From positions 2,232,001-2,296,000 of the forward strand of contig NZ_AP025592.1 of the NCBI RefSeq assembly GCF_023169965.1: a stretch of 64,000 nt of DNA. Direction: 5' to 3'. The notes beneath the pieces were generated by a model. The model was not told the DNA's origin. It was given only the letters and a program-made list of their open reading frames with translations, and did no database searches. Numbering within the stretch: the stretch's first letter is position 1; every line of letters begins with the position of its first letter. Shown here piece after piece: positions 43,318 to 54,575 of this stretch. Made by a program: the position numbers and the translations under genes. The DNA comes from Anaeromyxobacter paludicola. Its GTDB lineage: Bacteria > Myxococcota > Myxococcia > Myxococcales > Anaeromyxobacteraceae.

Positions 43318-43332
43318 GGAACGAACCTTGCT
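43318..43332 (+). promoter_or_regulatory. Sigma-54-like promoter of the cytochrome operon
   Basis: GGAACG-A-ACC-TTGCT matches GGCACG-R-N3-TTGCW with one mismatch and exact -24/-12 spacing. +1 is expected at about 43343, then GGGGGGAA (43349-43356) and the TTG start at 43361: a short normal leader. Confidence 0.5.
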
Positions 43333-43360
43333 TTGGCATCCTCCCCCTGGGGGGAACGCA

Positions 43361-46300
43361 TTGCAAACGGTCGAGCGGACTCGAGGCGAATCGGAGCGGA
43401 ACGGTCGGCAGGCGCGGCGCTCGCCGGGGCCGGGCCGCGCCCGCCGCGGCGCTGCGGGCCGGGCCCCGCGCGTCCTGCTCGCGCTCCTGCTGGCCACCGC
43501 TCCGGTCGCCGGGCGCGCCGCGAACACCACGCTCCTCGGCGACTACCTCGGCTCCGAGGCGACCAGCGTTGCCCAGGCCTGCCCGGCCAGCCCGCTCGCC
43601 GACGTGGACCACTTCAGCCTCGCGACCTCGCTGGGGACCGACTCGGTCACCTCGGTCACGCTCACGCTCACCGGGACGGGCGGGATCCAGCGCGTGGACG
43701 TCACCAGCGACGACGGCCTGACCACCTACGGCCAGCTCGCGTCGCCGGGGACCTCGGCCACGGTCTCGCTCACCACGCCCATCCCGGTCACCATCACGCC
43801 GACCCAGTACCGGGTGAAGGTGCTGCCCAAGGGCTACGGCATCACCGCGAGCTACAGCGTCACCGCCCGCGTGAGCAGCCTCGTCGCCACCAACGCGGTC
43901 AGCGGCACCGACGCGGGCAGCGGCACGGTGGTCGTGGACGGCGCGCCGCCCGACTACGTCTCCGGGGCCCAGCTCACGACCTCTGGGCAGCAGGCGAGCT
44001 TCTCCTGGACCAACCCCACCACCGACTTCGACCACGTGGTGGTGCTCCGCAGTGGGGCCGGGAAGAGCGTCCAGAACTACCAGCTCACGAGCGGCACCAC
44101 CTACACCGCCGGGACCCAGGTCGGCACCGACACCGTCCTCTACGTCGGGACGCTCACCTCCTTCACCGACACCCTCAACGCACAGTACACCTACGGCATC
44201 GCGACCGCCGATCGCTGCAACAACTACAAGTACGCGACCCTCCTGACTCCCGCCTACGTCACCGTCGGCGAGTTCTACAACCTCGAGCCGGGCAACAACC
44301 GGGTCTGCCCCGGCGCGGCGGCCCTCAGCGCCGACATGTTCACGATGGGGGCCACGAACTACACCGCCAACGGCTACGCGGTGACCGCCGTGACGGTCGC
44401 CCTCACCAACCCGCAGGCGGTGCAGAGCGTCCGCATCGTCATGAGCGGCACGGTGCTCGGCCAGCTCGCCAACCCGGGGAGCACGGCCGTCATCCCCCTG
44501 AGCCCGCCGATCCAGGCCAACAGCACCTTCGGCATCTACAACGTGCAGATCGCGCCCGCGCCCTACGCCTCGCTCACGAGCGGCCAGGCGTATCCGGTCA
44601 CGGCCAAGGTCATCGGCGTCACCACCTCGATCCCGATCCTCGTCAACGACTCCAACCCGAGCGCCGTGATCACGGTGGACTGGAGCACCCCGACGGCGGT
44701 GTCCGGCCTGACCGGCGCCGCCTCGGCCCCGAGGATGATCCACCTCGCCTGGACCAACCCCTCGGGCACCCTGCCCCCGCCCAACTTCGGCGGGGTGGTG
44801 GTGCTCCGGAGCCAGCCGGGCGCCGCGATCCAGACCACCGCGCTCGCCGACGGCGCGACCTACGCCGCAGGCTCGCAGGTCGGCGCCGACACCGTCGTCT
44901 ACACCGGCACGGGAACCGCGCTCGACGACGTGGTGACGGGCGGGCTCACGTACCAGTACGCGGTCTTCAGCGTGAACCCCTGCTCCGGGACCGGCACCAA
45001 GTACTCGGCGCCGGTCCTCGCGGGCCCGATCACGGCCACGGTGCCGAGCCACTTCCTCGCCGGCGGGGCGGCGGTGAACGAGGGCGTGGACGGCACCGTC
45101 ACCACCTTCCTCCAGGCGGCGGCGCCGACGAGCGCGGGGGCGTGGAGCGGGTGGACCGCCACCGCCGGCCCCTTCGTGCCGGTGGCGCGCTTCTACGGCC
45201 CCACCTACGCGGATCAGCGGCTCGTCGCCGCCAACGCCACCGCGTCGCTCTGGCTCACCAGCTCGAACCCCTCCCCTGCCGACCCGGAGTGCGGGGGCCC
45301 CTTCCCCGCCGACAGCTTCCGGGCCGACCTGCTCGACCACGATCCGGACGGCCCGGCCGGGAACGGGACGCTCATCGGCTCGGGGACCGTCACGAGCCCC
45401 GGCGGCACCGCCGCGCTCGTCCCGGTCGCCTTCGCCAACGCGCCCTACACCATCGCGCCGGGCCACCGGCTCGTCCTCCAGCTCAACTACTCGGCCTCCA
45501 CCGCCGACAGCTACTGCAGCTCCAACGGGCTCGTCTACGGCAGCCCCGCGATGTCGAGCGGCGTCGCGATCTCCGACGCCGTGACCTGCACGCCCTCGAG
45601 CGCGCTCGCCATGCCGGCCGGCCAGGGCGCCGGCGGCGTGTCGCTCGATCCGGCCGCGCTCGTCACCGCGACCGGGGTGAGCGGGCTCCGCTTCCGGGTG
45701 GGGCTCGCGCCGAGCGACGGGTTCGCCGCCCTCGATCCGAAGTGGACCAGCACCAACATCGGCTCGGGCGTCACGGCCGGCGCCGCGCTCACCGCGAGCG
45801 GCGGGCAGCTGCGCGTGCAGAGCCCGAACGGCACCGGCGCCTTCGGGACCACCGACTACTTCCGGTTCGTCTCGCAGCCCGTCGCCCTGAGCGGCGACTT
45901 CACGGTGGACGTCCGGGTGGACGAGATCGACGGCTCGGCCAGCAGCCCGCGCGCCGGCCTCATGGTCCGGCAGGACCTCTCGGCGACGGCCGTCAACGCG
46001 GCCCTGTTCGTGGCGCCGGGCGCAGGGGCGGTGTTCCAGGCCCGGAGCACGACCGGCGGCGCCACCGCTTCGACCACCGTCGCGGGGGTCACGCCGGCCG
46101 CGTGGATCCGGCTCAGCCGCGCCGGCGGCACGCTCACCGGCTACTACTCGAGCGACGGCGTGTCGTGGACCCAGGCCGGCTCGCAGGCCGTCTCGCTCAC
46201 CGGCACCTTCTACGTCGGCGTGGCGGTCGGCGCCGGGTCCTTCGTCTACCCGTACACCGCCTCCTTCTCGCGCTTCCTCCTGACCCAGCCCTACGTCCCG

Positions 46301-49300
46301 AGCGACTGGTCCACCGGCACCTACGCGACGGCGGCCTGGCCGCGCGGCACCTACTGGCTCCTCGCCCAGGGCACGACCAACTGCGGGAACCCCCTCCCGC
46401 CGGTGATGGGCGCGTTCCACTTCTCGGTCGGGACCACCACGCTCGGCGATCACCTCGCCTCGGAGCCGCCCGACGTCCCGCAGGCCTGCCCCGCGCCCGG
46501 CGCCAGCGGCGCCACCTACGACGCCGACGCCTTCACCCTCTCGACCTCCGTCTTCACCGACAGCGTCACCGCGCTCACGCTGGCGCTCACCGGCACCCCC
46601 TCGGCCGCCCAGTCCATCCTGGTCACGAGCGACGACGGCGCGACCGTCTACGGCCAGGTGACCCCGTCGAGCCTCACGCCGACCGTGGCGCTCGCGACGC
46701 CGATCCCGGTGACCACCACGCCGCGCCAGTTCCGGCTCAAGATCCTGCCGGCCGCCTACGCCGCCCTGGCCTCGGGGCAGAGCTACCCGCTCACCGCCCG
46801 GGTGACGACGCTCACGTCGAACAACGACGTCGCCGGCGCCGACGCCAGCGGCGCCACGGTGACGGTGGACCGCGCGCCGCCGACGCCCCCCGCGTCGTGG
46901 AGCGCCGCCGCGACCGCCACCCCGAACCAGATCGCGCTCTCCTGGCAGAACCCCGCGACCGACTTCACCCGGGCGGTGATCCTGCGCAGCGCCGGGGGCG
47001 CGAGCGTGCAGACCACCCGCCTCACCGACGGGACGAGCTACGTGATGGGCGGCACGCTCGGCACCGACACGGCCGCCTACGTCGGCGCGGCGCAGGCCTA
47101 CTCGGACCAGGCGCAGGGCGGGCTCGCCTACCGCTACCTCGCCTTCTTCGGCGACGCCTGCGGCAACTACTCCGCCGGCGTGCCGGCCGGCCCGGCCACG
47201 CCGGTGGTCCCGCCCTACGCGACGACGGTGGGGGCGCTCACGGCCACGCCCGGCTTCTGCTCCCAGGTGAGCCTGTCGGCCGCCTTCAGCGGCGACGGCG
47301 ACCTCGACAACGCGGCCACTTTCGCCCGCGGCAGCTCGCCCTTCGGGCCGTTCACCCCGGCCTCCTGCGCCTCGGCCCCGTCGCGTGGGCTCACCACCTG
47401 GTCGTGCGTGGACGACAGCCCGACCACCGGAGGGCTCTGGTACTACCAGGTCACCTTCACCGACGGCGACGGCGTGAACGGCCAGAGCACCGCCCTCACC
47501 GGACCGGTCGTCGTCTCGGCCTGCGCCGACGGCACGGGCGCGCTCACGGTGATCCCCCTCGGGGCGACCCCCGACGTGGCGGCGGCCCCGCCCGGCTCGG
47601 TCAACGTCACCGCCGGCAAGTTCCGCCTGAACGTGGCCAACGGCTCGGTGCAGGTGACCGGCATCACCCTCGCCAACACCGCCGCCAAGGCGGCCCCGCC
47701 GGGCGAGCTCCAGTCGGTGAGCCTCTACGAGGACCTGGGCACGACGCCGGGGGCCTGGGACGCGGGCGACGCCAAGGTCGCCACCGCCGTCTACGACCCC
47801 GGCCGGATGGCCTGGGTCCTGCCCGGCTTCGCCGTGACCGCGGGGAACCACGACTACGTCCTCACGGTGGCGGTGACCCTCGGCGCCGACCCCACCGCCG
47901 GCGAGCAGTTCCGGCCGTCATTCGGCACCGCGGACGTGAGCGTCATCTCCGGCGCCCGCATCCTCAACACCGCGACGGTGACCGGCGGCACGGTCACGAT
48001 CGCCGGGGCGCTCGCCGGCGCGGCGGTGGGCGACCCCACCCCGCAGAGCCTCGTCCCGATGGTCTCGATCCTGAACCCCGGGCACGCCGCCACCGTGAGC
48101 ACGGACGCGAGCAGCCGGATCCGGGTGCAGGTGCAGGTCTACGACCCGAGCGGCAGCGGGGTCTCGAGCGTGAAGCTCTCGCGCGCCGCCGGCGCGAGCG
48201 GCACCTTCACCGACACGCTCGCCCCCAACGCGGCCTACGCGTCGGTGGCCGGCGCGAAGGCGGGCGTGTACCAGGCGGACCTCGCGTTCACGCCGGGCGC
48301 GTACGTGCTGCAGGCCCAGGCGGTGAGCGCGAGCGGCAACACCGGCTACTCGTCCCCGGCGGTGATCACGGTGAACGCGAAGCGGACCGGGGACGGCAAC
48401 CTCCTCGCCCGCGCCAACTCGAGCCAGCTCTGCGTGGATTGCCACAACGTCAAGACCCACTCGAGCCAGAGCACCGCCGACCCGGCGACCGGCCTCTCCA
48501 AGTACGGCTCCTGGTCCACCACCTGCCGCGACTGCCACACCCCGCACAACACCCACAACGCCCAGCTCCTGCGCGAGAGCATCGTGCCGCCCTCGTACGG
48601 CGGCTACGTGCCCGCCAAGACCGTGGTGTTCCAGGACCGGATCACCGGCGACTCGGGCGCCACCTCCACCGCGGTCTCCTTCGTGACGAGCAACGCGAGC
48701 CTCGTCGCGGCCCGGACCACCGGGCCGTGCCAGGCCTGCCACACGCGCACCGCGAGCCCGGCCGGCGTGGCGCGCTGGCGCGGTGCGGGCAACCAGGACC
48801 CGGCCCACTACGCCGGGACCGACACCACCGCCTGCACCGGCTGTCACTCCCACCAGAACGGCTTCCGCGGGCGCGAGGCCCAGGGCGGCGAGTCCTGCGC
48901 GAAGTGCCACGGCGCCAAGCTCGCGGGGATGCAGGCCGGGGCGCGCGCCTCGGCCCACGCCCTCGGCGCGGCGGGCGCGAGCGACGCGCCGCAGGACAAC
49001 GCCACCGCCTGGGGTAATCCCCTCGCGGCCAACGCGCCGGCCGCGCGCTCCTGCGTGGACATGTGCCACCCGGACCACGTCCACAACGATCCCTCGGCCT
49101 GGCCGGCGGCCGTCCACGCGAGCAATCTCCACCGGTCGCCCCTGACGGCGGCCTCGCGCGCGCTCACCCGCGACACCACTCCGTCGAGCGCCACCTACGG
49201 GCAGGCCACCGCGGCGAGCGGCGCCGGCGTGCTGCGCGCCGACCACGTGCCGGGTCAGGTCCAGGGCTGCATGGCCTGCCACCAGAACCCGGTGGACGCG

Positions 49301-50650
49301 AGCCGGCCCTACATCGACGCGACCCGCTACGATCTCTCGGCCCACAACACCACCTCGGCGGGCGGGACGGCGTGGGAGTACGTGATGCACGACGACGCCC
49401 CCGGGGCGACGCCGAGCGTGAGCTCGCGGCTGCAGCGCAACTGCACCAAGTGCCACGCCGGCCGCCAGAGCGAGGGGCAGACGCCGAGCTGGAGCGTGCA
49501 GGGCAACGGGCCGGTCCAGGGGCCGCACTGGTCCGACAATCCGGCCCTGCTCGCGGGGGCCCTCGCGCCCGCGGGCGATCCGACGCGGAACGTCTGCTAC
49601 AACTGCCACGGCGGCGGGACCGGCGCCGGCAAGGACTTCTCGGGCAAGAACGTGGCCCAGGCGGTGGCCCGCGGGGCCGCCGGCGCGCGCCACCCGGTGG
49701 ACGCGGTCTCGCAGCACTCGACCGCCGTGGAGTCGGCCGCGACGTACGGGACGCGGCTCGGGGGCGCTCCCCGCCACGCCGGCTGCGCCGACTGCCACGA
49801 CGCCCACCAGGCCCGGTCGGGCGCGCACACCACCGGCAGCCCCCTCGCCGGCCCCACGCTGCAGGGCGCCTACGGCGCGACGCTGTCCACCTACCCGCCG
49901 GGCTGGAACCCGCCGGCGAGCCCGTCCTACTGGACCGCCGGCCGCCTCCAGGCGGGCGTCGACCTCGAGGCGGCGCTCTGCTTCAAGTGCCACTCGGCCT
50001 GGTACTGGGGCAGCGGCACGCCGCCCACCTCGCCCGACCTCGGCGCCGCGGCGACCGACCAGGCGCGCGAGTTCAACCCGAACAACCTCTCGTTCCACCC
50101 GGTGCTCTCCGACTGCTCGAAGAACATCGGCCGCATCGACCCGCGGAACCTCCTCGGGAGCTGGAACAAGACGGCCAACGTCAACCGGATGACCTGCACC
50201 GACTGCCACGCCTCCGACTCGACGAGCGACCCCGCCGGCCCGCACGGCGCCGGCTCGCGCTTCCTGCTCAAGGGTCCCAACACCGCCTGGGACGCCAGCG
50301 TGAACTGGGCGGGCAACTACGGCAAGACCGGCAGCCAGGGCATCTTCTGCTTCAACTGCCACGACCCGAGCTTCGCCTACACCCGCAACCCGATGCACAC
50401 CGACACCGGCTTCGAGTACCACGGCGGGATGCCCTGCCAGACCTGCCACGCCGCGGTGCCGCACGGCGGGCCCCAGGTCGGGCTGCTGGTGGCGGGGGCG
50501 GGCAGCGGCGCGGCGACGTGGGCCGGCGACTACGACGGCTCGCCGACGTACGCCGCCAGCCAGTGGCTGTACATCGCCGGCTACCCGGGAGCGGGGAACA
50601 CCTGGCAGCAGGGCAACTGCGGCTGCGGCGGGCCAAGCCACAGTGAGTGA
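43361..50650 (+). CDS. Giant secreted 14-heme cytochrome with adhesin-like repeats
   Basis: A protein of about 2,429 residues from TTG 43361 (good GGGGGGAA RBS five bases before). A long basic n-region precedes the hydrophobic signal core (VLLALLLATAPVAGRA), so it is exported. Residues about 54-1690 are beta-sandwich/Ig/Fn3-type modules. One module type (VTSDDGxTxYGQ, ATPIPVT, FRLKILP or YRVKVLP) appears near residues 54, 305 and 1025. A DUF1349-like jelly roll (YYSSDGVSWTQAGS) lies around 785-960. From 1691 to 2363 there are 13 CXXCH motifs (for example CVDCH, CRDCH, CYNCH) plus one CX3CH (CVDMCH at 1898). It has no C-terminal membrane segment. It is likely extracellular or surface-bound for electron transfer or metal reduction. 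The stop overlaps resB. Confidence 0.93.
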   Translation: MQTVERTRGESERNGRQARRSPGPGRARRGAAGRAPRVLLALLLATAPVAGRAANTTLLGDYLGSEATSVAQACPASPLADVDHFSLATSLGTDSVTSVTLTLTGTGGIQRVDVTSDDGLTTYGQLASPGTSATVSLTTPIPVTITPTQYRVKVLPKGYGITASYSVTARVSSLVATNAVSGTDAGSGTVVVDGAPPDYVSGAQLTTSGQQASFSWTNPTTDFDHVVVLRSGAGKSVQNYQLTSGTTYTAGTQVGTDTVLYVGTLTSFTDTLNAQYTYGIATADRCNNYKYATLLTPAYVTVGEFYNLEPGNNRVCPGAAALSADMFTMGATNYTANGYAVTAVTVALTNPQAVQSVRIVMSGTVLGQLANPGSTAVIPLSPPIQANSTFGIYNVQIAPAPYASLTSGQAYPVTAKVIGVTTSIPILVNDSNPSAVITVDWSTPTAVSGLTGAASAPRMIHLAWTNPSGTLPPPNFGGVVVLRSQPGAAIQTTALADGATYAAGSQVGADTVVYTGTGTALDDVVTGGLTYQYAVFSVNPCSGTGTKYSAPVLAGPITATVPSHFLAGGAAVNEGVDGTVTTFLQAAAPTSAGAWSGWTATAGPFVPVARFYGPTYADQRLVAANATASLWLTSSNPSPADPECGGPFPADSFRADLLDHDPDGPAGNGTLIGSGTVTSPGGTAALVPVAFANAPYTIAPGHRLVLQLNYSASTADSYCSSNGLVYGSPAMSSGVAISDAVTCTPSSALAMPAGQGAGGVSLDPAALVTATGVSGLRFRVGLAPSDGFAALDPKWTSTNIGSGVTAGAALTASGGQLRVQSPNGTGAFGTTDYFRFVSQPVALSGDFTVDVRVDEIDGSASSPRAGLMVRQDLSATAVNAALFVAPGAGAVFQARSTTGGATASTTVAGVTPAAWIRLSRAGGTLTGYYSSDGVSWTQAGSQAVSLTGTFYVGVAVGAGSFVYPYTASFSRFLLTQPYVPSDWSTGTYATAAWPRGTYWLLAQGTTNCGNPLPPVMGAFHFSVGTTTLGDHLASEPPDVPQACPAPGASGATYDADAFTLSTSVFTDSVTALTLALTGTPSAAQSILVTSDDGATVYGQVTPSSLTPTVALATPIPVTTTPRQFRLKILPAAYAALASGQSYPLTARVTTLTSNNDVAGADASGATVTVDRAPPTPPASWSAAATATPNQIALSWQNPATDFTRAVILRSAGGASVQTTRLTDGTSYVMGGTLGTDTAAYVGAAQAYSDQAQGGLAYRYLAFFGDACGNYSAGVPAGPATPVVPPYATTVGALTATPGFCSQVSLSAAFSGDGDLDNAATFARGSSPFGPFTPASCASAPSRGLTTWSCVDDSPTTGGLWYYQVTFTDGDGVNGQSTALTGPVVVSACADGTGALTVIPLGATPDVAAAPPGSVNVTAGKFRLNVANGSVQVTGITLANTAAKAAPPGELQSVSLYEDLGTTPGAWDAGDAKVATAVYDPGRMAWVLPGFAVTAGNHDYVLTVAVTLGADPTAGEQFRPSFGTADVSVISGARILNTATVTGGTVTIAGALAGAAVGDPTPQSLVPMVSILNPGHAATVSTDASSRIRVQVQVYDPSGSGVSSVKLSRAAGASGTFTDTLAPNAAYASVAGAKAGVYQADLAFTPGAYVLQAQAVSASGNTGYSSPAVITVNAKRTGDGNLLARANSSQLCVDCHNVKTHSSQSTADPATGLSKYGSWSTTCRDCHTPHNTHNAQLLRESIVPPSYGGYVPAKTVVFQDRITGDSGATSTAVSFVTSNASLVAARTTGPCQACHTRTASPAGVARWRGAGNQDPAHYAGTDTTACTGCHSHQNGFRGREAQGGESCAKCHGAKLAGMQAGARASAHALGAAGASDAPQDNATAWGNPLAANAPAARSCVDMCHPDHVHNDPSAWPAAVHASNLHRSPLTAASRALTRDTTPSSATYGQATAASGAGVLRADHVPGQVQGCMACHQNPVDASRPYIDATRYDLSAHNTTSAGGTAWEYVMHDDAPGATPSVSSRLQRNCTKCHAGRQSEGQTPSWSVQGNGPVQGPHWSDNPALLAGALAPAGDPTRNVCYNCHGGGTGAGKDFSGKNVAQAVARGAAGARHPVDAVSQHSTAVESAATYGTRLGGAPRHAGCADCHDAHQARSGAHTTGSPLAGPTLQGAYGATLSTYPPGWNPPASPSYWTAGRLQAGVDLEAALCFKCHSAWYWGSGTPPTSPDLGAAATDQAREFNPNNLSFHPVLSDCSKNIGRIDPRNLLGSWNKTANVNRMTCTDCHASDSTSDPAGPHGAGSRFLLKGPNTAWDASVNWAGNYGKTGSQGIFCFNCHDPSFAYTRNPMHTDTGFEYHGGMPCQTCHAAVPHGGPQVGLLVAGAGSGAATWAGDYDGSPTYAASQWLYIAGYPGAGNTWQQGNCGCGGPSHSE

Positions 50651-51962
50651 CGGCGAGCCCGGACCGGTCGGCCGGCGGAGCCGGCTCGGCCGACTGAAGC
50701 GCGCGCTGCGCACGCCCGCCATCATCCTCGCGGAGGTGCTCGGGCTCGCGGCCGCCGGCGCTCTGCTCGCGACCGTGCCCCAGGCCGGCGCGGGCGGGGA
50801 GCTCGAGGCGGGGCCGCTCGGGACGCCGCTCCGGCTGCTCGGCGCCGACCGGGTGCTGCGCACGCCCTGGTTCGCGGGGCTCGTCCTCGCCACCGCGGCG
50901 TCGCTCCTCGTCATCGTCTGGGATCAGTGGCGGCAGCTCCTGCGCACCTGGCGCGCGCCGCCGTCCCTCTACCGGCTGCGCGGAGCCCACTACCGCCGCG
51001 AGCTCGAGCGCCCCGCCACGCCCGGCGGGCCGCCGCCGCCCGTCGTGCGCCGCGAGCACCGGCTCGGGCTCGCCGGCTCGCCGCTGCTGCACCTCGGGCT
51101 CTTGCTGGTGGTGCTGGCGGGCCTGCTCCGCGCCACCCTGGCGCGCGAGGCCCTGGTGGACCTCGTGGAGGGGCAGCCGCTCGACCCCGCGCCGTCGGCC
51201 TACGGGCTGCAGCGCGGTGGGCTCCTGGCGAGCCCCTTCGCACTGCCGGAGCGGCTCCGGATCGAGCGCTTCCACCTGGAGCGGTACCCGAGCGGCGCGC
51301 TCAGCGCGCTCTCCGTGGACGTGCGGCTCGGCGCCGAGCAGCGGCCGGCGCGCGTCGCCATCAACGCCCCGCTGGAGCTGGGCTTCGACCGGCTCTACGT
51401 CACGCAGACGATGGGGCCGGCGGCGTTCCTGGTCCTGTCCCGGCCCGGCGCGGCGCCGGTCCGGGCGGCGATGTTCCTCCGCGAGGAGCGTCCGGGCGGC
51501 AGGCGCCTCCTCTCGGAGCACGGCTTCCCCGGCGGGACGACGCTGCGGGTCGAGACCCTCCCGGCCGCGGCCGGCACCGGAGCTGGGGCCCGCCGGGCGC
51601 TGTGGGTCACCGCGCTCCGGGGCGGGGCGCCGGCCGGCGCGGCGGCGCTCGCGCCCGGGGAGGCCCTCGACCTGCCGGGGGGCGAGCAGGTGCGGCTGCT
51701 CGAGGTGCGCCGCTGGATCCGGTTCGCCGGCGCGCGCGACCCGTTCACCGCGCTCGCCTACCTGGGGTTCGTGCTCGTGGTCGCCGGCGCGGCGCTGCTC
51801 TTCTTCCTCGTCGAGGTGGAGTGGGCGGTGGTCCCGGAGCCGGGAGATCGGCCCGAGGTGGAGCGGGTGACGGTGCTGCTCCGGGCGCGGCGCTTCGCGC
51901 CCCTGCAGCGGGAGCGGTTCGAGCGGCTGGTCGAGGCGGCGGGGCGAGGGGGCGAGGGGTGA
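50643..51962 (+). CDS. resB: ResB-family cytochrome c biogenesis protein
   Basis: A 439-residue membrane protein starting at GTG 50643, overlapping the cytochrome stop by 8 nt. Three hydrophobic helices (AIILAEVLGLAAAGALLATV; FAGLVLATAASLLVIVW; LLHLGLLLVVLAGLL) precede a large periplasmic domain, and a fourth helix (GFVLVVAGAALLFFLVEVEW) is near the end, as in ResB/Ccs1. With CcsA it forms the system II synthase that carries heme out and ligates it to cytochrome c. The tight coupling suggests it serves the adjacent cytochrome. It is shorter than some ResB proteins but has the right topology. Confidence 0.88.
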   Translation: MSDGEPGPVGRRSRLGRLKRALRTPAIILAEVLGLAAAGALLATVPQAGAGGELEAGPLGTPLRLLGADRVLRTPWFAGLVLATAASLLVIVWDQWRQLLRTWRAPPSLYRLRGAHYRRELERPATPGGPPPPVVRREHRLGLAGSPLLHLGLLLVVLAGLLRATLAREALVDLVEGQPLDPAPSAYGLQRGGLLASPFALPERLRIERFHLERYPSGALSALSVDVRLGAEQRPARVAINAPLELGFDRLYVTQTMGPAAFLVLSRPGAAPVRAAMFLREERPGGRRLLSEHGFPGGTTLRVETLPAAAGTGAGARRALWVTALRGGAPAGAAALAPGEALDLPGGEQVRLLEVRRWIRFAGARDPFTALAYLGFVLVVAGAALLFFLVEVEWAVVPEPGDRPEVERVTVLLRARRFAPLQRERFERLVEAAGRGGEG

Positions 51963-51964
51963 CG

Positions 51965-52786
51965 ATGGCGTGGGACGGGTTCCGGACGCAGGTGGTGCTG
52001 CAGTGGGGCGCGGTAGCCTGCGACGTCGCGGCCGCGGCCCTCTTCACGAGCGCGGCGCTCTTCGCCCGCCCGGCGCGGGCGCGCTGGGCGCGGTGGTGCG
52101 CGGCGCTGGGGCTCGCGCCGCACGGCGTCGCGATCGCGCTGCGCTGGCTCGAGGTGGGGCACGGCCCCTACATGATGAAGTACGAGGTGCTCACCTCGAT
52201 CTCCTTCACCGCCGTCGCCCTGCTGCTCGTCTTCCTGTGGCGCCGGCCGGACTGGAGCGCGCTCGCGGTGGTGGTGATGCCGGTCGCGATCCTGCTGCTC
52301 GGGCTCGGCCTCTTCGCCCACCCCGCCGCGCGGGACCTCCCGCCGACGCTGCGCTCGGCCTGGCTCGTCTTCCACGTCATCTTCGCGAAGCTGTCGGCGG
52401 GGGCCTTCATCCTCTCCCTCGCCACCGCGATCTGCCTGCTGCGCCAGGAGCGCCGGCCGAGCCCGCGCATCCCCCCGGCCGACGCGCTCGACGCCTACAC
52501 GGTCCGGTTCGTCGGCTTCGGGTTCGTGTTCTGGAGCGTCACCATCGCCGCCGGGGCCATCTGGGCCAACCAGTCCTGGGGCCGGTACTGGGGCTGGGAT
52601 CCCATCGAGACCTGGTCGCTCGTGAGCTGGCTCGTCTACGCGGCCTACCTCCACGCGCGGCTCTTCTTCCGGATGGCGCGCGCAGCCGCGGCGTGGCTCG
52701 CCATCGCCTGCTTCGCCCTCTTCATCCTCACCTTCCTGGTGCTCACCTTCGTCGTGCCGTCGCTCCACTCGGCCTACCTGCAGTGA
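51965..52786 (+). CDS. ccsA: CcsA/ResC-type cytochrome c synthase subunit
   Basis: A 273-residue membrane protein with eight hydrophobic helices. It has the heme-handling WWD signature (WGRYWGWDPIETWSLVSW) between helices and conserved histidines (VFHVIFAKLSAGAF; a later HARLFF). It is the partner of ResB in system II heme ligation. The start is ATG 51965. An in-frame GTG at 51959 would overlap the ResB stop by 4 nt and is possible. It is the last gene of the cytochrome operon. Confidence 0.92.
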   Translation: MAWDGFRTQVVLQWGAVACDVAAAALFTSAALFARPARARWARWCAALGLAPHGVAIALRWLEVGHGPYMMKYEVLTSISFTAVALLLVFLWRRPDWSALAVVVMPVAILLLGLGLFAHPAARDLPPTLRSAWLVFHVIFAKLSAGAFILSLATAICLLRQERRPSPRIPPADALDAYTVRFVGFGFVFWSVTIAAGAIWANQSWGRYWGWDPIETWSLVSWLVYAAYLHARLFFRMARAAAAWLAIACFALFILTFLVLTFVVPSLHSAYLQ

Positions 52787-52853: not shown

Positions 52854-54575
52854 ATGCCTCCCCGCTGGGGTCGTCGCGCCCCGGAGCTCGCCGCGGCCGC
52901 CGCCGGACTCGCCCTCTTCCTCTGCCTCGGTGGCGGGGCGGTGATCCGGCCCGGGAACGTGGCGTGGATGGGCGCGGGCGACTGGGCCTCGCACCTCCTC
53001 GGCTGGCTCCACTTCCGCAACGCCGCCTGGGCGCTGCCGCTCGGGCGCATCGACGGCGAGCTCTACCCGGTCGGCACCACCGTCGGCTTCACCGACTCGA
53101 TCCCGCTCCTGGCGATCCCGCTCAAGCTCGCCTCGCCGCTCCTGCCCGGCACCTTCCAGTACTTCGGCGCCTGGCTCGCCCTCTGCTTCGCCCTGCAGGG
53201 CTGGGCCGGCGCCCGGCTCACCGCCGTCCTCTCGGATCGCCCGCTGCACCGGGCCCTGGGCGGCGCCCTCTTCGCCCTCGCGCCGCCGCTCGCGGCCCGC
53301 GCGGTGCTCTTCCGGCACCCCAGCCTCTGCGCCACCTGGCTCCTGGTGGGGCTCCTCGCGCTCGCCCTCGCGCCGGCCGCCGCCGCGCCGGGTCCGGCGC
53401 GGCGGGCCCTCGGCGCGCTCGGGCTCGTGCTCCTCGCCGCCGCGATCCACCCGACGCTCTGCGCCCTGGCGCTCGGCCTCGCGCTGGCGCTGCTCGCCCG
53501 GAGCGCGCTCGAGGGCGCCCTCTCCTGGACCCGCGCCGCCGCCTGGAGCGCGGCCGTCGCCGCGCTCGCCGCGGCGCTCCTGGCGCTCCTCGGGTACGCC
53601 GGCGGCACCCCCTCCGGCGCCGCCGGGTTCGGCGAGTTCTCGGCCGACCTGCTCTGGCCCCTGAACGGCTTCGGCGCCTCCCGCCTGCTCCCGGCCCTGC
53701 CCGCCGGGCCGGGTCAGTACGAGGGGATGGGCGCCCCCGGCCTCGGCGCGCTCGCGGCGGGCGCGGCCGGGCTCGCGCTCCTCGCCGCCCAGCGCCGGCT
53801 CCGGCCCGCCCCCGGGCGGCTGCGGGCGCTCTCGCCGCTGCTCGGGGTCAGCCTCGCCTGCGCCGCCTTCGCGCTCGCCACCCCGATCACGCTCGCCGGC
53901 CGGCCGCTCCTCTCCCTCGACGCGATCTACGCGCGGCTCGGGCCGCTCACCGGCGCCTTCCGCGCCTCGGGCCGGTTCGTCTGGCCGCTGTCGCTCCTCC
54001 TCACCGCCGGCGCCCTCGCGGCGCTGCTCGCCGCGCTCCGGGATCGGCCCCGCCTCGCCACCGCCGCGCTCGCGGGCGCGGTGGCGCTCCAGGCGGCGGA
54101 CCTCTCGGCCCTCCCCGCCCGCGACCTCTTCCCGGCGCGGGCCTGGCGGCTCGCGTCGCCGGCGTGGGAGGCGGCGCGCGGCGTCCGCCACGTGGCGATG
54201 CTGCCGCCGGAGATCAAGAACGGCGGGCCGTCCTGCAACGGCGACTACGCCTGGGACGACTACGTGCCGCTCTCCGAGCTCGCCTACCGGCTCGGCGCCA
54301 CCTTCAACAGCGGCTGGACGGCGCGGCTCGACGCCGGGGCCTCGGAGGCGGCCTGCCGCGCGCTCCTGGCCGAGGCGCTCGCCGGCGCGCTCCGCCCCGA
54401 CACCCTCTACGTGCTCCACCCGCGCATGCGCCGCCACCTGCCGCCCGGCAGCGCCCGGTGCGGCGAGGTGGAGGGCCACACGGTCTGCGTGGCGCCGGGG
54501 ACCGCCGGCCCCCTGGCGACGCTCGCGGCGGCCTGGACGCCCTTCCCGGATCCGTCGCGCCTGGACGGGAGGTAG
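52854..54575 (+). CDS. Large polytopic membrane protein (GT-C like)
   Basis: A 573-residue membrane protein with about 10-11 hydrophobic helices, a short N-terminal basic cap and a soluble C-terminal part (after residue about 440, MLPPEIKNGGPSCNGDYAWDDY onward). GAGDWASHLLGWLHFRNAAW resembles the Asp-containing luminal loop of polyprenol-dependent GT-C glycosyltransferases and DUF6311 proteins, but no firm family call was made. RBS GGAAGAAGGAG before ATG 52854. It may be transcribed with the cytochrome operon, because only 67 bases separate them. Confidence 0.7.
   Translation: MPPRWGRRAPELAAAAAGLALFLCLGGGAVIRPGNVAWMGAGDWASHLLGWLHFRNAAWALPLGRIDGELYPVGTTVGFTDSIPLLAIPLKLASPLLPGTFQYFGAWLALCFALQGWAGARLTAVLSDRPLHRALGGALFALAPPLAARAVLFRHPSLCATWLLVGLLALALAPAAAAPGPARRALGALGLVLLAAAIHPTLCALALGLALALLARSALEGALSWTRAAAWSAAVAALAAALLALLGYAGGTPSGAAGFGEFSADLLWPLNGFGASRLLPALPAGPGQYEGMGAPGLGALAAGAAGLALLAAQRRLRPAPGRLRALSPLLGVSLACAAFALATPITLAGRPLLSLDAIYARLGPLTGAFRASGRFVWPLSLLLTAGALAALLAALRDRPRLATAALAGAVALQAADLSALPARDLFPARAWRLASPAWEAARGVRHVAMLPPEIKNGGPSCNGDYAWDDYVPLSELAYRLGATFNSGWTARLDAGASEAACRALLAEALAGALRPDTLYVLHPRMRRHLPPGSARCGEVEGHTVCVAPGTAGPLATLAAAWTPFPDPSRLDGR

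Follow-up and report, generated by a model that had tools for sequence, protein, structure and literature searches.

A CX3CH heme motif conserved in one clade of a 14-heme cytochrome family, and the ResB–CcsA genes beside it in Anaeromyxobacter paludicola

The locus

The gene considered here encodes a c-type cytochrome of Anaeromyxobacter paludicola with 14 heme motifs, the sixth of which has three residues between its cysteines (CX3CH) where the others have two. It is followed by genes for a ResB-like protein and CcsA, and lies in a stretch of 64,000 nucleotides (contig NZ_AP025592.1, positions 2,232,001 to 2,296,000), called the window below. The main features, in window coordinates, are as follows.

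43328–50650, plus strand: c-type cytochrome with 14 heme motifs, about 2440 residues (open reading frame, Pfam)
48431–50449, plus strand: heme region, residues 1702–2374, from motif 1 (CVDCH, 48431–48445) to motif 14 (CQTCH, 50435–50449)
49052–49069, plus strand: CX3CH motif CVDMCH, residues 1909–1914, heme motif 6 (codons TGC GTG GAC ATG TGC CAC)
50643–51962, plus strand: ResB-like protein with a GTG start (Pfam ResB, E 3.4e-16)
51965–52786, plus strand: CcsA (Cytochrom_C_asm), its ATG 2 bases past the ResB stop (Pfam, E 8.7e-38)

Residues are numbered from the TTG at 43328, although the true start codon is unsettled. The frame contains 13 CX2CH motifs and one CX3CH motif, and a motif count over the whole frame gave no CX4CH and no CXXCK; this agrees with the first-pass annotation, which had placed a single CX3CH at the sixth of 14 motifs. 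The N-terminal part of about 1690 residues has no heme motif, and Pfam Cytochrome_C7 and Paired_CXXCH_1 both score above their cut-offs. The protein therefore combines several CX2CH motifs with a CX3CH (13 + 1), together with an export signal recognized by eye only (RVLLALLLATAPVAGRA). It scored below the cut-offs of the NapC/NirT/NrfH family (Cytochrom_NNT, 20.7 against 24.1) and of the DmsE family (TIGR03508, 22.2 against 192.2). The end of the cytochrome gene, stop codon included, shares 8 bases with the start of the ResB-like gene (GTG), and with CcsA following so closely the three probably form one operon.

Conservation of the extra residue

Six more relatives that align at site 6 are present in the same 4.59-Mb single-contig genome, four of them with CX3CH (L036, L037, L038 and L039) and two with CX2CH (L040 and L041; RRCL-MCHVDH). 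Relatives were also sought in 60 related genomes and then in one genome per species; in the latter set a contig scan with a single sequence gave no match, and its alignment-based version gave 54 loci, 12 of which duplicated earlier ones. The resulting alignment at site 6 holds 27 members with CX3CH and nine with CX2CH. All 27 CX3CH members share the pattern CxxMCHxD without exception: both cysteines, the Met that directly precedes the second one, the His, and an Asp two positions further on. The extra residue itself is Asn in 18 members and Asp in the window protein only. These members come from Myxococcota, Acidobacteriota, Nitrospirota, Lentisphaerota, Thermodesulfobacteriota and Candidatus Binatota, with one further unplaced bacterium. 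The nine CX2CH homologs have the two-residue spacing, except L110, where the bases are unreadable. Two further CX3CH members were found in 195 genomes of the phylum and the 17 genomes behind the loci. In total 29 distinct CX3CH peptides of site 6 were collected, all with a His at +10, by patterns that demanded Met and Asp (for CX3CH) or an Asn-Leu/Met-Arg/Lys tail (for CX2CH); the unbiased comparison of the clades is the alignment of 27 and nine members.

A sequencing error, a frameshift or chance was considered as the source of the extra residue and rejected, because CxxMCHxD is kept in 27/27 members across six phyla. At the DNA level alone the motif is not significant, with 46 matches genome-wide against 130 for a reversed control pattern; its significance comes from its conservation. 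The alignment thus confirms, at the level of sequence, that the CX3CH at site 6 is genuine and conserved. It had been proposed that loss of the extra residue in every relative would speak against a heme site here, and the 27 CX3CH relatives instead retain it.

The same invariance bears on the idea that the extra residue disables one of the cysteines, so that the motif binds heme by one thioether only or binds none. Tolerance of CX3CH by System II synthases is undocumented in the literature searched, which leaves room for such a site, but invariant Cys, Cys, Met and His in 27/27 members would be unexpected if the site were dead, and we regard this explanation as highly improbable. Motif 6 is likely to be a heme site, judging from its conservation.

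The two clades

A tree built from motif 4 onward, site-6 columns excluded, separated 25 CX3CH rows from nine CX2CH rows with support of 100/99. This tree took 34 of the 36 rows, the two rows of L046 (both CX3CH) being left out. A single change separates CX3CH from CX2CH, and since the tree is unrooted a gain of the residue is indistinguishable from a loss. The CX2CH sister clade consists of L040, L041, L103, L108, L115, L118, L129 and L139, together with L110, unreadable at the motif. At least three genomes (G000, G195 and G200) contain members of both clades, which fits an old duplication. No description of the CX3CH clade, or of the 14-heme family, was found in the literature searched, a set with most subscription papers outside it.

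From motif 4 on the two clades have a common heme-domain architecture and common non-motif histidines. They differ in that the CX2CH clade has one residue fewer at site 6 and has no equivalent of three histidines.

49082–49084, plus strand: His1919, +10 from the first Cys of motif 6; in 27/27 of the CX3CH clade and 0/9 of the CX2CH clade
49115–49117, plus strand: His1930; in 26/27 and 0/9, respectively, with Arg or Lys instead in the CX2CH clade
49388–49390, plus strand: His2021, before motif 8; in 25/27 and 0/9, respectively

Every other histidine conserved outside the motifs, from motif 4 onward, is shared. When the heme domain was aligned over its full length (12 CX3CH and 8 CX2CH rows), the same three histidines were absent from the CX2CH rows, in which three others were only half retained. 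Further clade-specific residues, for example Trp1895, Arg1944 and Arg2037, lie between motifs 5 and 8; altogether there are 18 clade-specific columns, 12 of them within the first 204 of 607 positions. The co-variation of the histidines amounts to one event in the tree followed by retention and not to independent replicates. The clade-specific residues hint that the pocket near heme 6 was remodelled.

A search of the PDB with the single cytochrome protein gave no match. With the family profile only weak local matches were obtained, the best being to a photosynthetic reaction-centre cytochrome subunit (E 7.7e-5) over motifs 8–9. That match, to the reaction-centre cytochrome c subunit 7vrj_C, spans 49388–49630 and places His2021 near its Leu-Met-Met; we note it as a lead only.

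The ResB–CcsA genes and the motif

The CcsA of the window falls below the cut-off of TIGR03144; the adjacent-gene combination of ResB and CcsA is present, with PF05140 and PF01578 above cut-off. Searches of the genome for CcmE and CcmF_C gave no match, and the same searches were positive in 5 of 14 control genomes. ResB was found at 7 places and CcsA at 8 (nine ResB rows, with two loci counted twice). On these grounds, no CcmE or CcmF_C match and many places with ResB and CcsA, the organism is taken to be a System II organism.

The first-pass annotation had suggested that the adjacent ResB–CcsA pair recognizes the CX3CH, which would make it a private synthase of the kind of CcsA1 for CX15CH and NrfI for CXXCK. 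The probable operon is in keeping with this, and both CXXCK and CX15CH do have dedicated synthases within System II (PMC10663686). We scored a pair where at least one ResB or CcsA profile match of at least 30 bits lay on the same strand. The adjacency table covers 26 CX3CH loci (two with less than 2.5 kb of flank), nine CX2CH loci (two of them short) and, chosen by hand, 12 relatives free of CX3CH (two short); at L037 the same-strand matches lie 5' of the gene, though tabulated as 3', and L100 has CcsA-like matches only. Where the flank was sufficient, ResB and/or CcsA were found near 15 of 24 CX3CH genes, 5 of 7 CX2CH homologs and 9 of 10 CX3CH-free relatives. Eleven more distant relatives stand outside the table; ten have no ResB or CcsA and one, L135, has two pairs. 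Pairs thus stand beside CX2CH homologs as often as beside CX3CH ones, and the CX3CH paralogs L036 (73% identical) and L039 have no ResB–CcsA pair within their 19-kb stretches.

In a tree of 34 CcsA rows, made by a quick method, the closest relative of the window CcsA is its sister, encoded next to the CX2CH paralog L040 (56% identity, support 98). Nor is the motif confined to this gene family: of the 46 genomic CX3CH patterns, 13 lie in frames with at least three CX2CH, five of them in the cytochrome family and eight elsewhere (two of these eight seem to share one frame). Across the relatives the synthase does not track the odd motif, as one of the MccA or NrfA type would. A private synthase is accordingly an explanation to which we give very little credence, and the proposed recognition of CX3CH by the adjacent pair is not supported. 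Given the sister position of the L040 CcsA and an adjacency that does not follow CX3CH, the window pair is most likely of the generic type, a general helper for the cytochrome.

Nine rows of a separate CcsA clade in the same tree (support 98) have a CX3CH cytochrome as neighbour, and one further row, L101, adjoins a cytochrome whose matched part lacks CX3CH; the window genome contributes two members, L037_17722 and L038_13625, to this clade. A divergent ResB, scoring 72–114 bits against 396 for that of the window, lies beside most of L043, L044, L045, L046, L048, L050, L010, L090, L101 and L038.

A CcsA of this clade, which stands beside most of the CX3CH cytochromes of Anaeromyxobacteraceae, might together with its divergent ResB favour the motif and act in trans on the window protein. 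The make-up of the clade and the low scores of its ResB partners (72–114 bits, that of L037 being cut by the end of the stretch, against about 335–490 bits for generic ones) speak for such a specialization. However, L101 belongs to the clade, the CcsAs of the window, L088 and L097 fall outside it although their cytochromes have CX3CH, and the clade may merely follow the history of the organisms or operons. We consider action in trans by this clade unlikely. A broader proposal is that heme 6 is functionally distinct, the extra residue, the Met and His1919, His1930 and His2021 remodelling its pocket and ligation, with the specialized System II synthase clade favouring it in trans; this is possible, though we hold it doubtful.

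Discussion

We think it probable that motif 6, with its widened Cys-Cys loop fixed in one clade, binds heme c covalently, and that System II hemylates all 14 motifs through synthases of which the adjacent pair is not specific for motif 6. The cytochrome would be exported in an unfolded state, and System II (ResB–CcsA) synthases would hemylate the CX3CH along with the 13 other motifs, the co-encoded pair serving the whole cytochrome with no special reading of motif 6. The heme of site 6 would be held by thioethers to both cysteines and its iron ligated by His1914, the loop accommodating the additional residue. The widened loop would have been fixed long ago in one of the two clades of the 14-heme family. 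Both the action of System II on site 6 and a role in electron transfer are what we infer.

Several points weigh against this interpretation. Heme attachment and ligation at site 6 are deduced from the gene and its relatives, not from protein or spectra. AlphaFold models of 789 and 252 residues, made from 22-row alignments, reached a mean predicted local distance difference test score (pLDDT) of 37.5 and 40.3, too low for use. No System II synthase that attaches heme to CX3CH was found in the literature searched, from which subscription papers were mostly absent, and the closest precedent, MmcA, concerns System I in an archaeon. The separate CcsA clade beside nine CX3CH cytochromes leaves some room for specificity in trans.

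The description of CX3CH as rare proved overstated. One survey treats the spacing as routine in Geobacteraceae, Shewanellaceae and Desulfovibrionaceae (PMC11434368), and it is counted as such in Gallionellaceae too (PMC10734462). In MmcA of Methanosarcina acetivorans mass spectrometry detected +615.17 Da on all seven motif peptides, those of CXXXCH and CXXXXCH included, from which its authors concluded that the ordinary Ccm machinery of the organism hemylates non-canonical motifs (PMC11024163). Like the window protein, MmcA has mostly CXXCH and one CXXXCH, and no dedicated synthase is invoked for it; unlike the window protein it is archaeal, matured by Ccm and has seven hemes, and the likeness is one of description and not of sequence (PMC11024163). 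By description as well, ImcH homologs resemble it, being multiheme electron-transfer proteins whose CX2CH motifs are joined by a single conserved CX3CH (PMC6295460). In cytochrome c3 of Desulfovibrio, too, a functional heme site has its cysteines further apart, but this is a small tetraheme protein in which CX4CH, with four residues, occurs twice (PMC10454114). MccA/SirA (CX15CH) and NrfA (CXXCK), which had been put forward as relatives of this situation, share with it a non-canonical motif in a multiheme protein and synthase genes nearby, and dedicated synthases are described for both motifs (PMC10663686, PMC12285233, PMC6976685). They are nevertheless poor analogues, the window motif keeping its His and gaining one residue, and its nearby synthase not tracking the motif. 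The site is a CX3CH site of known kind.

What appeared as an isolated odd motif becomes a family-wide feature with a built-in control, namely sister paralogs of the same genome that differ by one residue of a heme motif. In a host with System II only, the tolerance of the synthase for three-residue spacing and the role of such a heme become testable. The locus also calls for caution, as a synthase gene that adjoins an odd motif need not be dedicated to it.

Other features

Relatives with far more heme motifs were observed as single frames. L105:555–9923, from a Myxococcota metagenome-assembled genome, encodes 3123 residues with 63 CX2CH, 4 CX3CH and 13 CX4CH (80 in all), and L046:7126–15663 and L051:7703–16498 have 66 and 65 heme-type motifs, many of them CX4CH. 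In the window, residues 824–986 of the cytochrome (45797–46285), within its heme-free N-terminal part, gave a DUF1349 match below threshold (27.6 against a cut-off of 32.4 bits), and the gene 3' of CcsA, at 52854–54575, has a match to DUF6311.
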